Source: Chlorops oryzae (lineage: Eukaryota > Arthropoda > Insecta > Diptera > Chloropidae). From it: a stretch of 64,000 nucleotides of DNA. The position numbers and the translations under genes are program-made. Shown here piece after piece: positions 5,640 to 12,594 of this stretch (within the stretch, counting starts at the first letter, position 1; each line of letters begins with the position of its first letter). The DNA is taken from the NCBI GenBank assembly GCA_020466095.1, contig CM035808.1:86096779-86160778 (forward strand), in the 5' to 3' direction. The notes under the pieces were generated by a model that was not told where the DNA came from, did not search any database, and saw only the letters and a list, made by a program, of their open reading frames with translations.

Positions 5640-7554
5640 ATGACTAGACCAAAATATCTTTCCAGCGAAGAACTGGAAGGTCTTTTGAATGCTTTCGATG
5701 ACGAAGACTTTTCTGACAGCGATGAAGATTACGTGCCAGAAAAAAATTATGATTCGGAAGAAAGCGAAGCAGATTCTGAGTGTAATAGTATGGAAGAAAG
5801 TGAAGATGTCGCTGCAATTGGAATCTCATCCGTAGATAAATCGGTGGATCCATTGTTTGTCTCAAAAGACAATACGGTATGGAGCTCTCAACCAATCCAA
5901 GATCGTACTGTAAGATTACGAAGTGAAAATGTCATCAATTTGCGTCCAGGCACAACAAGATATGCAACAGCGCGTATCGATGACATTAAAGATGCCTTTA
6001 TGCTATTTTTTCCACCACCTGTTGAGAATATTATTCTGAAATGGTCAAACGCATATGCAAAGGCCAAATGCGGCGACAACTTTATTGAAATCGACTCGAG
6101 CTTGTTACGTGCATATATCGGTGTTCTCATTTTGGCTGGAGTTTACAGGTATATTTTTTGTGTTTGAAATGAGTCTTAGTTATAATAGCCATAATTAAGA
6201 TCCAGGAATAAAACATAGTTGGATCTGTTCGATGGTGAATATGGACGTCCTATATTTAGAGCGATAATGCCAAAGAAAACATTTCAATACATGAATCGCG
6301 TTAATCGTTTCGATGACGTTATGAGCAGACGATCGAAAATTTCTAACGACAAATTTTCACCGATTCGTGAAGTATTTGACAAATGGTCTGAGCTATTGGC
6401 TGATTATTTCAACCCATCTGAATGTCTTACTGTTGACGAACAATTGCTTGCATTTCGGGGTAGGTGCAAATTCAGAAAATATATGCCGTCTAGGCCTGCA
6501 CGATACGGAATTAAACTTTGGCTATAAGTTTGCTCTGAAACTTGCTACGTTTGGAAGATCCAGCCGTATTTAGCTAAGCCAGTTGGTGGTATAGCTGGAA
6601 AAATTCAAGGACAGCGAGTAGTCTTGGATTTGGTTCATGGCTTAAAAGGCCATAATATAACAATGGACAACTTCTTCTCATCATACGAACTTCGCCAAAA
6701 GTTGTTATCCCGAGGGCTAACAATGGTTGGAACAATGCGCAAGAACAAAAGAAGTATCCCACCTAGACTTTTAGAATGCAAACGAGTATTGGTAGAATTG
6801 GTAGAAAGGACAATTGCGAAATACTGCAAAGCACAATGCATCATTCTAATGATGTAGACTTTTGTGGAAAAAAGCTGCCGATAATAATTAAATATTATAA
6901 TAAAACCAAAGGTTGGTTTCATACTTCTTTTCTTGATATCTGTGATCTTCAGTTTTTTAATTTTTTATACTAAAGGCGGCGTGGATACAGTTGACAAAAT
7001 GGTGTCTTGCTACAGTTCCAAAAGAAAGACGAACCGCTGGCCTTTGGCTGTTTTCTCGAATATGATCGACATCTCAGCCCTAAGCGCGGTGACTATTTTT
7101 AAAGATATTCATCCAAATTGGCAAGTAAATAAACCAATAATGCGAAGAGTTTTCTTGCGTGAGCGTGGAATATCACTTGCAAAACCGTACATGACAATTA
7201 AAAAAGGTGCGCGACGAAGCGGTGTCTTTACTTTCTGCCATAAGTCGGAGTTCACCAAGTTAATCAATGGACGAGCGCAGCATCCCCATCGAACAATCAG
7301 AGTCGTCGTTGACCCATGAACGTGCAGAACTTCGAAAAAGCTCATTAGAATCGCCTTATTTTCTCCAAAAGAGGTCCAAAATTGTTCCCCCCACTGTCGA
7401 AGGAAAATCCCGGTGTCATATTTGTTATAGCGAAAAGTCGAAAACTAAAAATTACGTTTATCAAACGATGTACTGTTTCTGCAAAAAAGGCGTTTGCAAG
7501 CGTGATCATAACCGAAATGTTTGTGTAAAATGTATTGAGGACAAATTAATTTAA
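5640..7554 (+). pseudogene. piggyBac transposase (DDE_Tnp_1_7), two introns, several lesions
   Basis: The protein would cut and paste the element at TTAA. Exon 1 (5640-6148) has an acidic N-terminus (residues ~15-60) and the start of the catalytic fold up to GVLILAGVYR. Intron 1 is 6149-6199 (51 bp, GT..AG). Exon 2 holds PIFRAIMPKKTF, the first catalytic Asp (LTVDEQLLAFRG) and the second (ITMDNFFSSYEL). Intron 2 is 6912-6975 (64 bp) and rejoins at the third Asp (GGVDTVDKM). The C-terminal cysteine-rich zinc domain (CHIC..CFCKKGVC..H..CVKC, 7410-7540) is present. Lesions: TAG at 6216-6218, TAA at 6525-6527, a frameshift near 6800, and another near 7270-7320. All three catalytic aspartates remain. 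Confidence 0.85.
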
Positions 7555-7711: not shown

Positions 7712-8431
7712 ATTCAAGTCGGGGAAATATGGTGAAAATCTTTCTTCTGAAAATTTCAAATAAAGTCATGTTGTGAACAATCAAGTGGGCTTAAGCATTA
7801 TTCATGTTTATATGACATAAAACATTAATTTTAATTTTGGTGAATTTTTTAAAATTGCCCAAATGCACAAGAAACCCAATAGGCAAAATTTGAATCATGC
7901 GCTGCTCTGATTGGCGAATGGATCAGCGGCGACCACGGCTGCCACTTATGGTACTTTTGTACCAAAATTTGTACTTTTTTGTATTTGGTACATTGGTACC
8001 TAACTCGTAGATTTGGTACATTTTTCAGGTGGTTGCGAATTAATTGTAAAACAATGGCTGAGATGACAGTTATCAAATGTTTATAGAGCTACAGCAGTGG
8101 CTTTTATAACAGTTTTCAGATTTTGCAACAGTGACTTAAATGACAGTTTGAGTCAAAATATCTCTAAGCATATATATTAACATATATATGGTTTTGGTTC
8201 CCTTTTTTATGGACTAGGTACAAAAAAACTTGAGGTGAATGGCAACCATGGCCACGATGGCGGCAGATTGGCTGGTTTAAGCTTTCGGCTAAGCAGGGTT
8301 GCAATAAAATACTGCAAGAAGTTTTAGAACAGGGTTGCATTTATAGTTTATAAAAGCTTTTATATGTAAAAGCTTTTTGTAAAAAACACATAGTTACATG
8401 TGGACTGAACTATTTTTTTTAAGACGGCGCA
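7712..8431. other. Non-coding flank between piggyBac and Transib
   Basis: A+T-rich sequence without a convincing ORF. It has short GGTAC-rich direct and inverted motifs around 7950-8030 (TTTTGTACCAAAATTTGTAC and relatives). I recognise no element. Confidence 0.6.
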
Positions 8432-8470
8432 CAGTGTCGTGTCTCCATACATTCTGTGGCCAAAAATAGA
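8432..8470 (+). promoter_or_regulatory. Transib left terminus resembling a 23-RSS
   Basis: Heptamer CACAGTG (8432-8438), spacer of exactly 23 bp (8439-8461), then CCAAAAATA (8462-8470) in nonamer position. The vertebrate V(D)J signal is CACAGTG, 12 or 23 bp, ACAAAAACC; the heptamer here is identical and the nonamer shares the A-rich core. Confidence 0.8.
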
Positions 8471-9144
8471 AGGAGTGGTCGCAGAGCAACGAAATTTATA
8501 GGATGTACTACTTTTTCCCAAATTAAGAAAATTTAAAAAAATCATAGAATTCCGCCCACTGACACGCCCACCTCCCATATAAAGTGATTTTCTAATTTCC
8601 ACAGCTTAAGCTCTAGAAAGACGAAATTTGGTAAGCAAGTTATTTAGGCGCAAAAATTGTGGGCCACCAAAAAATTTTTTGGTTGCCACGCCCCCTTTAT
8701 AAGTTAGGCCCCTTCAAAGTTCAGAGTTTTAAAGCTTATATCTTCATATAGAAATATTTTTCCCTAATAAAAAATTTAACAAATATTTTATGAATTTCAA
8801 ATCTGAAACTATATGTTATTAAGAATTTAAAAAAAATTTAGGTCTAACCGACGACTTACAAAAATTGCAAAGCAGTGAAAATGCATGAAAATTCAAACAA
8901 AAAATTGTAGCACTTTCGCCAGTACGCTCCTGAAAGAATCACTGCTGTTCAACAATGAATTAATTTTTGAATGAAAATTTTAGTTTTTTTTGATTAAAAA
9001 TAAATAGACTTTTAAATACTTAACTAATTTTTTCGGTATGCAAGCGGTTTTTAAAAAAACAGGCAAAAGTATGTTACCGTATGTTACCAAATATTTTATT
9101 CAAATGGATAATTCTTTTAACACAATTACACACACAATTTATTT
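8471..9144. other. Transib 3' non-coding region
   Basis: About 670 bp between the left terminus and the transposase stop. It contains CACGCCCACCTCCCATATA and GCCACGCCCCCTTTATA stretches reminiscent of dispersed fly repeats, but no ORF and no second pair of inverted ends that I could find. Confidence 0.5.
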
Positions 9145-11243
9145 TTAATCACTGTTAGAGCTTTCACTTCCTGATTCAGATGAGATGAAGTTTTCAAAAT
9201 CAATGCTCAAAGATGGCATACTATCGTCATCAAATTCATCTATTATAATGTAATGCTCTAACTCATTCTGCGCAGACTTCGTCTTTGTTGTAAGTTTTCT
9301 GTGTCTATTTATTAGTGGATCAGACGATAGCAAAAAGTGTTTCATTATGTCAATATTGGATTTTTCCCTTGAACATTTCCTTGTGCTATGCAATCGTACT
9401 TGTCTGAAGTCCTTATGTCGTGCTTCAAGAGCTTCCTCGGACATCATGCCGATTGGCAAAGAAAAGTTCTTTCCAATAAGTGCTCCATGGCACAAAACTT
9501 TGTGCAATGTCACAGGCATATTATTATTCCATGAATAATTTGTCGTATATAAATCGAAAGCATCTTTTAACAAAGGTTCGAATGTTTCAAAATTTATTTT
9601 GAATCCAGACGATAAGATTCTTAAAATGAGACCTAATTTTTGAATCAAATTGATGTCAAGACCGGTAATTTTCGCGCTTATTGAGAAGAACTTGAAAAAT
9701 TTTCTTGCGGTATTGCCATCGTTCGACGTTCCGTATCAAGTTTTCACTCTATCAACAATTAGTCCTAGCTCTTGTTTGAATTCTGTGCAAATTCTGTTTT
9801 TAGTTTCGGCAAGAACTTTCTTATCGTCTTCACTTTGTACTCTCCAGCGTTTAAATGAAAGCCTATAAGATATATGCAACAAACATTCGAAGCATTTAAT
9901 CCACGCGTGTAGTGTAGAAAGTCCGTACTTGATGTGCCGTTCTTCGATAGGCGTTATTAGTGAATTGAAAGAGTTCATAAGCTTTGGAGTAGATCCACAC
10001 AAATGGCATGAGCTCGTTGAATTTTTCTCCGAAAGAACATTTACAACAGCGCCATCCACCATAGTTAAATGGAGCAGGTACGACATATGCAATTTCTTAT
10101 TGTTTATATTGAAAGTTCTGCCATTTAACCTTTCTATTTGGCTTGATATATGTTTTTCTGTTTCCAAAATAAGGGATTTGGATTCTTTCATAAACATAAA
10201 TTTGATTGGACGACAAAATAAGGACGACGACGGTGTTTTGTTAAGCCACAATTCAGCTTTTGTGTTCGCATGGACAATTTTTAACGGAACTAAGCCTACA
10301 ACAAAGAGGAACTCATCTGTAGAGTTACTATCCCTAAAGTTTTGTTTGTACATTCCATGCCCTGAGCTTCCGTCAAATCCCCATTTGCACTCAAAAATGC
10401 AATGTGCGTCATCGTGCAATTCAACTAATTGCATTAAACTCTCCGCTGTTGAGTCAAGCAAATCTTGTAGGGGAATTTCAGCGGAGACTTCAGACGAAAT
10501 TACCGGTTTCGGTAGAAACTTCTCCATTTCTTGGCTCAAAATATGATAGCTTGGAAAGCAATCAGGGCTTACAGAATTTACAACTGTTCTCAGAGTGTAA
10601 TATTTACGAACAGACAGCTTTAAATCGAAATACAAGGCAATCACCTCTGCAATTGACAAACGGCTATGTTTAGCTGTGCCTTCTTCTTTTTTTATAGACT
10701 CTGCTGCATGCTTAATGTTTTCTGTCGAACTTGAATTTTTAAGTTCTTCTACCTTCCGGCGCTTACTTCTTTCCGACGATTCTTCGTAGGCTTTTCTTGG
10801 TCTGCCTCTACTTGTGCTAGGTTGCTAAGAAAAATTGAGAGATATTATTCGAAACATTTCCAAACTATTTAATGTAGAAAAACCCACCTCGGCGTCCGTC
10901 GGCACAACCTCTCTATGGACCTATTTTTATGTTTTCATTTCGTTATTATAGGAAATAACTAATATTATTCTGCACTTACGCTCAACTCCACTTCGAAAGA
11001 CGAACAGAGTCAATCCGAAAATTTTTTAACAAACCGTGTTTTGTTCCTAGTACAAATAGCCCACTTCCTCGAAAATTCGACGTCTAAAAAACGTATTTTT
11101 TTTCTAATAGCCTCTGTATCGAAGTGTCCATCCGTATTATTTTCTAGGTATTCAAACATAAGGTTCTCCCTTTCGGCTTCACGTTTACCCGAGCCCGCTA
11201 GCCAAACGTTAAAAAAATCTGATATTTTCAGTGCAGCGGCCAC
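9145..11243 (-). pseudogene. Transib transposase (RAG1-core relative), three exons, two TGA stops
   Basis: Exons: 11243-10980, 10920-10888 and 10824-9145, joined by introns of 59 bp (10921-10979) and 63 bp (10825-10887). Both introns are phase 0 with GT..AG borders. The total is about 658 codons, the family's normal size. Seen: N-terminal ISDFFNVWLAGSG, basic GRPRKAYEESSERSKRRK, the first catalytic Asp in WGFDGSSG (~residue 250), CRP, the second Asp in HLTMVDGAVVN (~356), a CHLCG zinc pair, YGLSTLHAWIKCFE, NDGNTARKFF, and the Glu in SEEALEARHKDF (~567), matching RAG1 D600/D708/E962. The only breaks found are TGA at 11010-11012 and 9736-9738; the rest of the frame is open. It would nick, form hairpins at flanking DNA and insert the element. 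Confidence 0.9.
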
Positions 11244-11748
11244 TATACAAAAAGTAAAATTATTATCGCGGTCGCACTCGGACGCAGCTGAATTTTTAGT
11301 ATTGTTTTGTACTTACTTTCAGAATTAAAATATATAAAAAATACGATTAGCTTATCTTCACAAACTTTTTAAAACGCTTTCAAAAATATTTTATTTAAAT
11401 TTTTTCGCTTTATTTCCTTTGTTTACCTTTTGAGGCAATATCAATCATATGTTCTTAATTTAAACAATAACAACAATTTTTAAATAAATGTTAAGGCTTA
11501 AGTTATAATTTGACATAAAAAAAATAAAGACCAAAGCACAATAGACGCAGTAAGAATTTTATAAACATAACAATTAAAACTTATAAGTTCTACATTTTAC
11601 AGCTGTTTTACGAGCAGTGTCGACTTTGACAGTCTGTTGTGACAAAACCGCTACGAATATTTGGACAAAAATTTTGATTTCTCTATTTCAATATATTCCT
11701 AACATTTACCTATCCAAATTTTTTTCAAATTCACACATCGAATTTTTG
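11244..11748. other. Transib 5' non-coding region
   Basis: About 500 bp between the transposase start and the right terminus. A+T-rich, with no ORF of note. It presumably holds the promoter; AAAATATATAAAAAATAC at 11325-11342 is a TATA-like candidate, but its role is unproven. Confidence 0.5.
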
Positions 11749-11776
11749 TATTTTTGGCCGCTCACACGACACTGTG
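11749..11776 (-). promoter_or_regulatory. Transib right terminus resembling a 12-RSS
   Basis: Read on the - strand: heptamer CACAGTG (11776-11770), spacer of exactly 12 bp (11769-11758), nonamer-like CCAAAAATA (11757-11749). The nonamer is identical to the left end; the spacer is 11 bp (one helical turn) shorter. Confidence 0.8.
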
Positions 11777-11966
11777 CGGCGCCAAACATGCGGTATTTGC
11801 CAATTTTCAAGCATCAAGTATTCGTCCGATTATTCGTATTTGTTCCATTCTTTATGGAAAATAATCGGTGTTTTGCAAGCATTTGCTCATCCACACAAGT
11901 AGATGTTCGGAATAATACGAATATTTGGTGCTTGGAAATCGGCAAATACCGCATGTTTGGCGCCGG
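11777..11966. repeat. Palindromic MITE-like repeat that received the Transib
   Basis: Inverted arms begin GGCGCCAAACATGCGGTATT and end in the complement near 11966, with a second inner hairpin around TTATTCGT/ACGAATA. Right of it, CGGCTTAATAATAAAAT resembles the inverted left Transib flank TATTTTTTTTAAGACGGCG, so the palindrome originally extended across the insertion site. The parent family is not recognised. Confidence 0.65.
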
Positions 11967-12094: not shown

Positions 12095-12594
12095 GATAAT
12101 TAACTTTGCATTGTCACGAATCAGATGTTTTGGTATTCGAGTATAAATTTAGCAGGGATAAAAGCTATCAAGATAATTGTGCCGACCCTACAGAAATAAT
12201 TTCGTATATTGTTCTGTTTTTCACATGCAACATCATCGAAGATAAAAATAGAATCTGATTTTGCTTTTTCTGGAGCTAGAACTTCTTCATTATCTGAGAA
12301 GGTGTAAAATCCTATTCCTTTTATTAGTTTTATAAGTTGTGGAAGATATTGATATTTCGGTTGATGCAATGACTTTGAATACAAGTGTACATTTTTAAAT
12401 CTAAGACCATTGGGACTTTCAATAAGACTCCGCATTATGTTGGTTTTTCCCCAATTCGCTGGTCCGACAATTAGTGCACGTATTGTGTTTGGTAGCAATG
12501 AACTATGACGTATTTGTGACAATTTATCATTTGAAAGCGTTTTTAGGTCTAAATTTTTCACCGAAATATTCATTTGTTGTCTTATGAAACACAT
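12095..12594 (-). pseudogene. Polinton packaging ATPase (FtsK/HerA, A32-like), truncated
   Basis: This ATPase is thought to pump genomes into Polinton capsids. Visible: the N-terminal KLSQIRHSSLLPNTIRALIV region, Walker A VGPANWGKTN (residues ~43-52), and Walker B SIFIFDDVAC (~115). After YFC the homology shifts frame to GRHNYLDSFYP and carries a stop at 12155-12157. It then continues (IYTRIPKHLIRDNA) to about 12095, where unrelated sequence begins. Length is about 160 codons of the usual ~230. It is divergently arranged with the PLA2-like gene 82 bp away. Confidence 0.82.

Follow-up and report, generated by a model that had tools for sequence, protein, structure and literature searches.

Does a Transib transposon of the dipteran Chlorops oryzae have one end laid out like the 12-bp-spacer recombination signal sequence (12-RSS) of V(D)J recombination and the other like the 23-RSS, and is the difference a property of its family or an accident of one copy? 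The question is raised by a stretch of 64,000 nucleotides, called the window in what follows (assembly GCA_020466095.1, contig CM035808.1, positions 86,096,779 to 86,160,778, forward strand). As read directly from the letters, the Transib measures 3,347 bp, spans 8430-11776 of the window and is bracketed by a perfect 5-bp target-site duplication (TSD). Both of its ends open with the heptamer CACAGTG, and the same nonamer-like block follows after 23 bp on the left and after 12 bp on the right.

8425..8429, no strand: TSD CGGCG, left copy (read directly)
8430..8436, plus strand: left heptamer CACAGTG, at the 3' end of the element, downstream of the transposase gene; exact in 40/40 left ends
8437..8459, plus strand: left-end spacer, 23 bp, as in 40/40 left ends
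8460..8468, plus strand: left nonamer-like block CCAAAAATA; 8-9 of 9 letters kept in 40/40
11749..11757, minus strand: right nonamer-like block CCAAAAATA, at the 5' end, upstream of the gene (read directly)
11758..11769, minus strand: right-end spacer, 12 bp; the best position in 29/29 elements with an exact TSD, two of them with ties
11770..11776, minus strand: right heptamer CACAGTG (read directly)
11777..11781, no strand: TSD CGGCG, right copy (read directly)

The earlier note on this DNA had called the element a Transib, an identity upheld by its HzTransib/RAG1-like transposase, its CACAGTG termini and its 5-bp GC-rich TSD. The heptamer and nonamer block that it reported at both termini are there, as are the perfect CGGCG duplications outside them. 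Its spacer lengths of 23 and 12 bp are also right, but the start that it gave (8427) and its left spacer (8439-8461) are off by 2-3 bp.

Taken by itself, the likeness between the ends of this one copy is moderately surprising. The 13-mer CACAGTGTCGTGT, common to both, has two matches in the window when up to 2 mismatches are allowed, both exact and both at the Transib ends; 0.56 would be expected by chance, and 14 of 100 shuffles reached two matches. Behind both 13-mers lies the 11-letter run GGCCAAAAATA. Shared runs of at least 11 letters occur in 16 of 2999 random pairs of 60-mers from the window. It is the other copies in the genome that settle the reality of the asymmetry.

Copies were gathered with a 101-bp query from the left end, which gave 743 candidates in the 442-Mb genome, 40 places among them being scored. 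The set analysed comprises the window copy and 39 fetched stretches, hence 40 elements; one stretch, L012, is counted by its nested element, and the interrupted outer element is left out. The left spacer is 23 bp in 40/40, a figure that is partly selected, as the left ends were gathered by similarity to that of the window. The right ends were not so selected. Twenty-nine of the 40 have a right end with an exact 5-bp TSD, and in all 29 the right nonamer fits best at 12 bp (27 uniquely, 2 in ties that include 12). A 12-type right end is also found in L021 and L042, where the TSD is one letter off, in L018, where there is none, and in L019, where the nonamer has a single change and the TSD a one-letter mismatch; this last copy falls outside the scoring rule used for the 40. 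In L041 the search caught the end of another element (best spacing 22 or 28), and in L009, L027, L043, L044, L046 and L047 no right end was found within the fetched stretch. The 29 duplications have the consensus CGNCG, with C in 25, G in 27, C in 25 and G in 21 at the four fixed positions.

Two of these copies belong to the same family as the window copy: L010, a deletion derivative whose pieces are 94% and 99% identical to it, and L011, 98.8% identical. Each has 23/12 ends and its own TSD. The 11-bp difference in spacing is fixed per end and is not private to the window copy, and within the window family the copies show none of the outcomes that the note had set against its proposal (equal spacers, a difference confined to one copy, or an unconserved A-rich block). 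The frequency of shared runs in random pairs would, for one copy, leave some room for chance or for an 11-bp indel peculiar to it. With the same spacings in 29/29 TSD-flanked elements and in several families, this explanation is scarcely credible, and the copy-private indel is ruled out by the other genomic copies.

The layout extends beyond the window family. A search of the genome with the transposase protein gave 87 matches, at 36-100% identity. In family F1 (the window copy, L010 and L011) the 12-type end lies upstream and the 23-type end downstream of the gene, with exact TSDs, and the same holds for F5 (50% transposase identity, exact TSD), F4 (55%, exact TSD, both ends found in one of two fetched copies) and F3 (60%, one TSD mismatch). 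The end sequences of F3 recur in the nested element of L012, there with an exact TSD. The 12/23 layout is thus common to four families, whose transposases are 50-100% identical to that of the window, and across them the 12-side spacer is constant in length and variable in sequence. Downstream, most letters of the 23-bp spacer and of the GAAGGAG that follows the nonamer are retained from family to family, the distant F19 (36%) included. Three copies of F19 with TSDs have 23 bp downstream, with CAAAAAATA, and 12 bp upstream, with the weaker CAGAAATTC. In a tree of 26 rows, the five 12/23 rows (F1, F3, F4 and two of F5) lie on one side of a branch with support 100/99, a split that holds among the typed rows, as 16 untyped rows may fall inside. 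F19 lies outside this group on a long branch, its placement unsure.

Other families in the genome are laid out differently. F9 (42%; of two fetched copies, one shows both ends) has near-symmetric spacers of 23/24, F10 (42%, two copies) of about 22/24, and F12 (45%) of about 22-23 at each end. Four more were left out of the family count: F2 and F8, for which only the downstream (3') end was found, at 23 bp; F13, for which only the upstream (5') end was found, with CACAATG and then 23 bp; and F15, whose ends lack a matching TSD and are apparently symmetric. F2, F8 and F13 are also not in the tree.

Two side observations concern these families. A 1,428-bp 12/23 Transib with F3-type ends sits inside the first bases of a window-family left end, with the TSD TGTCG (L005, 64-1597, and the left part of L012). 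The downstream end of F19 (L076, L085, L087) resembles those of F3 and F4 (L051, L054) over about 30 bp despite the 36% transposase identity, which would fit either an exchange of ends or strong constraint.

Over the whole genome, the pattern CACAGTG-N{6,36}-CCAAAAAT has 895 + 882 (1777) matches, against 14 + 12 (26) for a reversed control. The same pattern restricted to spacers of 22-24 bp has 581, against 0. Spacer lengths and pairs were taken from the first 100 places listed for each pattern, covering the first part of one contig. Among the 100 listed for the broad pattern, the spacer is 28 bp in 31, 23 in 19, 12 in 16, 14 in 12, 21 in 9 and 22 in 5, with eight other lengths once each; 24 occurs once, 11 and 13 not at all. 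Among those listed for the narrower pattern, 77 have 23 bp, 17 have 22 and 6 have 24. Convergent pairs no more than 5 kb apart in the broad set include six of 12/23, six of 28/28, one of 28/27 and one of 28/25, and three further pairs, one each of 21/21, 21/12 and 23/21. The 21-bp matches in these three belong to 12-type ends where CCAAAAAT occurs again 9 bp past the first block. No 12/12 or 23/23 convergent pair within 5 kb fits the exact pattern among these 100, and the 100 of the narrower pattern hold no convergent pair within 10 kb, hence no 23/23 among its 77 places of that type.

One common family, its members about 440-570 bp long, carries CACAGTG and CCAAAAAT at 28 bp at both ends (for example C1:4972680-4973133) and supplies the six 28/28 pairs; it is apparently a symmetric relative. 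Another has the two motifs 14 bp apart (for example C1:1827925-1827953) and accounts for 12 of the 100 listed places, its partner end not having been found.

The protein that would handle these ends is encoded on the minus strand.

9145..10824, minus strand: main exon of the Transib transposase, 559 codons plus the stop at 9145-9147
9424..9426, minus strand: catalytic Glu, residue 467 of the exon, aligned with E436 of HzTransib
9736..9738, minus strand: in-frame TGA, codon 363 of the main exon, ahead of the third catalytic residue
10054..10056, minus strand: second catalytic Asp, residue 257, aligned with D225 of HzTransib
10372..10374, minus strand: first catalytic Asp, residue 151, aligned with D126 of HzTransib
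10792..10806, minus strand: GRPRK motif, resembling the beginning of the RAG1 nonamer-binding domain (NBD), aligned with GRPR of RAG1
11010..11243, minus strand: probable upstream coding exon, recognized by eye, splice sites inferred

Judged by its sequence, the transposase is of the HzTransib/RAG1-like kind, with a GRPR motif like that of the RAG1 NBD. HzTransib is its nearest solved relative by sequence and by fold, and the DDE triad is in place, D151, D257 and E467 aligning with D126, D225 and E436 (numbering of PMC6941560). The solved HzTransib chain aligns only after the GRPR region. GRP is present in 13/17 alignment rows, the window row included, and in the upstream exon a W..C.R.K.RF pattern resembles, by eye, the N-terminal part of relatives. 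The window copy carries one in-frame stop, which precedes E467; in two other window-family copies (97% identical) the main exon is free of stops. Pfam gave a weak RAG1 match for the C-terminal piece (E 0.0047, 15.5 bits, under the cut-off of 25) and none for the read-through protein, and no relatives were found in collections of viral contigs, genome contigs and plasmids.

A transposon of the RAGL/ProtoRAG type, with a RAG1-like and a RAG2-like gene, would share with this element the RAG1-like transposase, the 5-bp GC-rich TSD and the asymmetric bipartite ends. The spacings differ, those of ProtoRAG being 27/31 according to the available text of PMC8289069, and no RAG2-like gene was seen in the window copy (from the list of its open reading frames (ORFs), not every one of which was profile-searched). 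Outside the transposase exons, the element has no ORF of even 100 amino acids, except antisense to the gene. With HzTransib nearest by sequence and fold, we consider a RAGL element extremely improbable, and it was set aside on the lack of a visible RAG2-like gene.

What, then, do the unlike ends do? Seen directly are the anatomy, the spacings fixed at each end, the duplications, the homology and the GRPR motif. On these, we think it somewhat probable (about 55%) that the element is a recently active cut-and-paste Transib whose upstream end resembles a 12-RSS, whose downstream end resembles a 23-RSS, and whose unlike ends are preferentially paired. The earlier note's proposal of an asymmetric 12/23-like pairing is to this extent supported in part. 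The same reading draws on the genome-wide pattern counts and, indirectly, on the lack of exact-pattern 12/12 and of 23/23 convergent pairs among the places listed. Its recent activity is suggested by the near-identical copies. In a dimeric transposase, the RAG1-like DDE core would engage the CACAGTG heptamers, and the N-terminal, NBD-like GRPR part would contact the CCAAAAATA blocks. The 11-bp difference in spacing, about one helical turn, would allow one complex to hold one end of each kind, and the pairing of unlike ends would be favored as in V(D)J recombination, yet without RAG2. Cleavage at the heptamers, perhaps through hairpins by analogy with HzTransib, would be followed by insertion at CGNCG sites with 5-bp duplications. 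It is possible, though we are doubtful, that matters go further and that a true 12/23 rule operates without RAG2, mobilization being confined to elements that pair a 12-type with a 23-type end. Such a rule would have been held through families 50-60% identical and have arisen or survived in the 36% lineage; it would be a property of the transposase (or its NBD) and the ends, and could predate the capture of RAG2.

A serious competitor, which we nonetheless judge somewhat improbable, is that the two ends are different end-specific binding sites derived from one ancestor: a left and a right end would be needed, the spacings of 12 and 23 as such would go unread, and apart from the heptamer any resemblance to V(D)J signals would be incidental. 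Other transposons, such as the P element and piggyBac, have unlike ends. This explanation gains from the conservation of the whole downstream end, including the spacer and the bases beyond the nonamer, which is unlike RSS spacers and fits plain sequence-specific binding. It gains also from the near-symmetric families F9, F10 and F12: because they coexist in the same genome, Transib chemistry does not need 12/23. It is less at ease with a nonamer block at exactly 12 and 23 bp in four families, with the absence of 11 and 13 among the matches listed, and with a 12-side spacer whose sequence varies while its length does not. Several further points, like the conserved downstream end, the near-symmetric families and the partial selection of the left ends, weigh against preferential pairing of RSS-like ends. 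Copies within a family share their descent, so their fixed spacing does not amount to many independent tests, and the clade of F1, F3, F4 and F5 may represent a single event. The 12-side nonamer of F19 is a loose match. The GRPR stretch aligns weakly with RAG1 (7.9 bits), and the predicted transposase model has low confidence over residues 1-50. When a variant nonamer is allowed, one of the 21-bp matches, the 12-type end at C1:26665747, faces another 12-type end 4.7 kb away (C1:26670423), which has a second partner in the 23-type end at C1:26669045, 1.4 kb from it.

The earlier note had left open whether such asymmetry was already known. It is: in the text available to us, PMC8355894 lists 12/23 ends (within 1 bp) for Transib5 of Drosophila melanogaster and for Transib2, TransibN1, N2 and N3 of Anopheles gambiae, drawing on Kapitonov and Jurka 2005, so the window family is a further case. 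The likeness to those Transibs is one of reported layout. According to the portions available, most Transib families have symmetric ends (PMC8289069) and Subgroup II Transibs include both kinds (PMC9435367); in HzTransib of Helicoverpa zea the ends are symmetric and scarcely resemble the nonamer (PMC8289069), in contrast to the 12/23 ends here, and the target motif given for hopper and transib2 of D. melanogaster is CCANTGG (PMC3276498), against CGNCG in C. oryzae. No report of a Transib in which a preference for 12/23 had been tested was found in the literature searched, most subscription papers lying outside the search. With the V(D)J system the element shares the consensus heptamer CACAGTG, an A-rich nonamer-like block, spacers of 12 and 23 bp, a RAG1-like core and the GRPR motif. 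The nonamer consensus ACAAAAACC, as cited from the accessible part of PMC2666730, is matched by CCAAAAATA at 6/9 letters, so that the A-rich core is kept while the consensus as such is not attained. Unlike the V(D)J system, the Transib shows no RAG2, is mobile and has a conserved downstream spacer sequence.

As for the surroundings, an inverted repeat of 49 bp (92%; arms 11777-11825 and 11917-11965) begins at the right TSD, which puts the Transib right at the border of an apparent small foldback element or one resembling a miniature inverted-repeat transposable element (11777-11965). An ORF at 12121-12594, minus strand, has a P-loop-like GPANWGKTN and by eye recalls the packaging ATPases of polinton-like or viral elements; its only Pfam match, to ATPase_2, is below cut-off (E 0.06). 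At 5640-6167, plus strand, lies a transposase fragment matching DDE_Tnp_1_7 at cut-off (E 8.8e-05), which we take to be of the piggyBac type.

In print, as far as the accessible texts go, 12/23 Transib ends are apparently documented for a small number of named families. The present genome by itself has several such families, with 581 matches at 22-24 bp, near-identical copies, two stop-free exons and near-symmetric families alongside. The C. oryzae set is thus a natural comparison in which to ask if a 12/23 restriction depends on RAG2 and if the nonamer is read by the GRPR/NBD part of the transposase, and its many copies ease the testing of an old question, the origin of the 12/23 rule.

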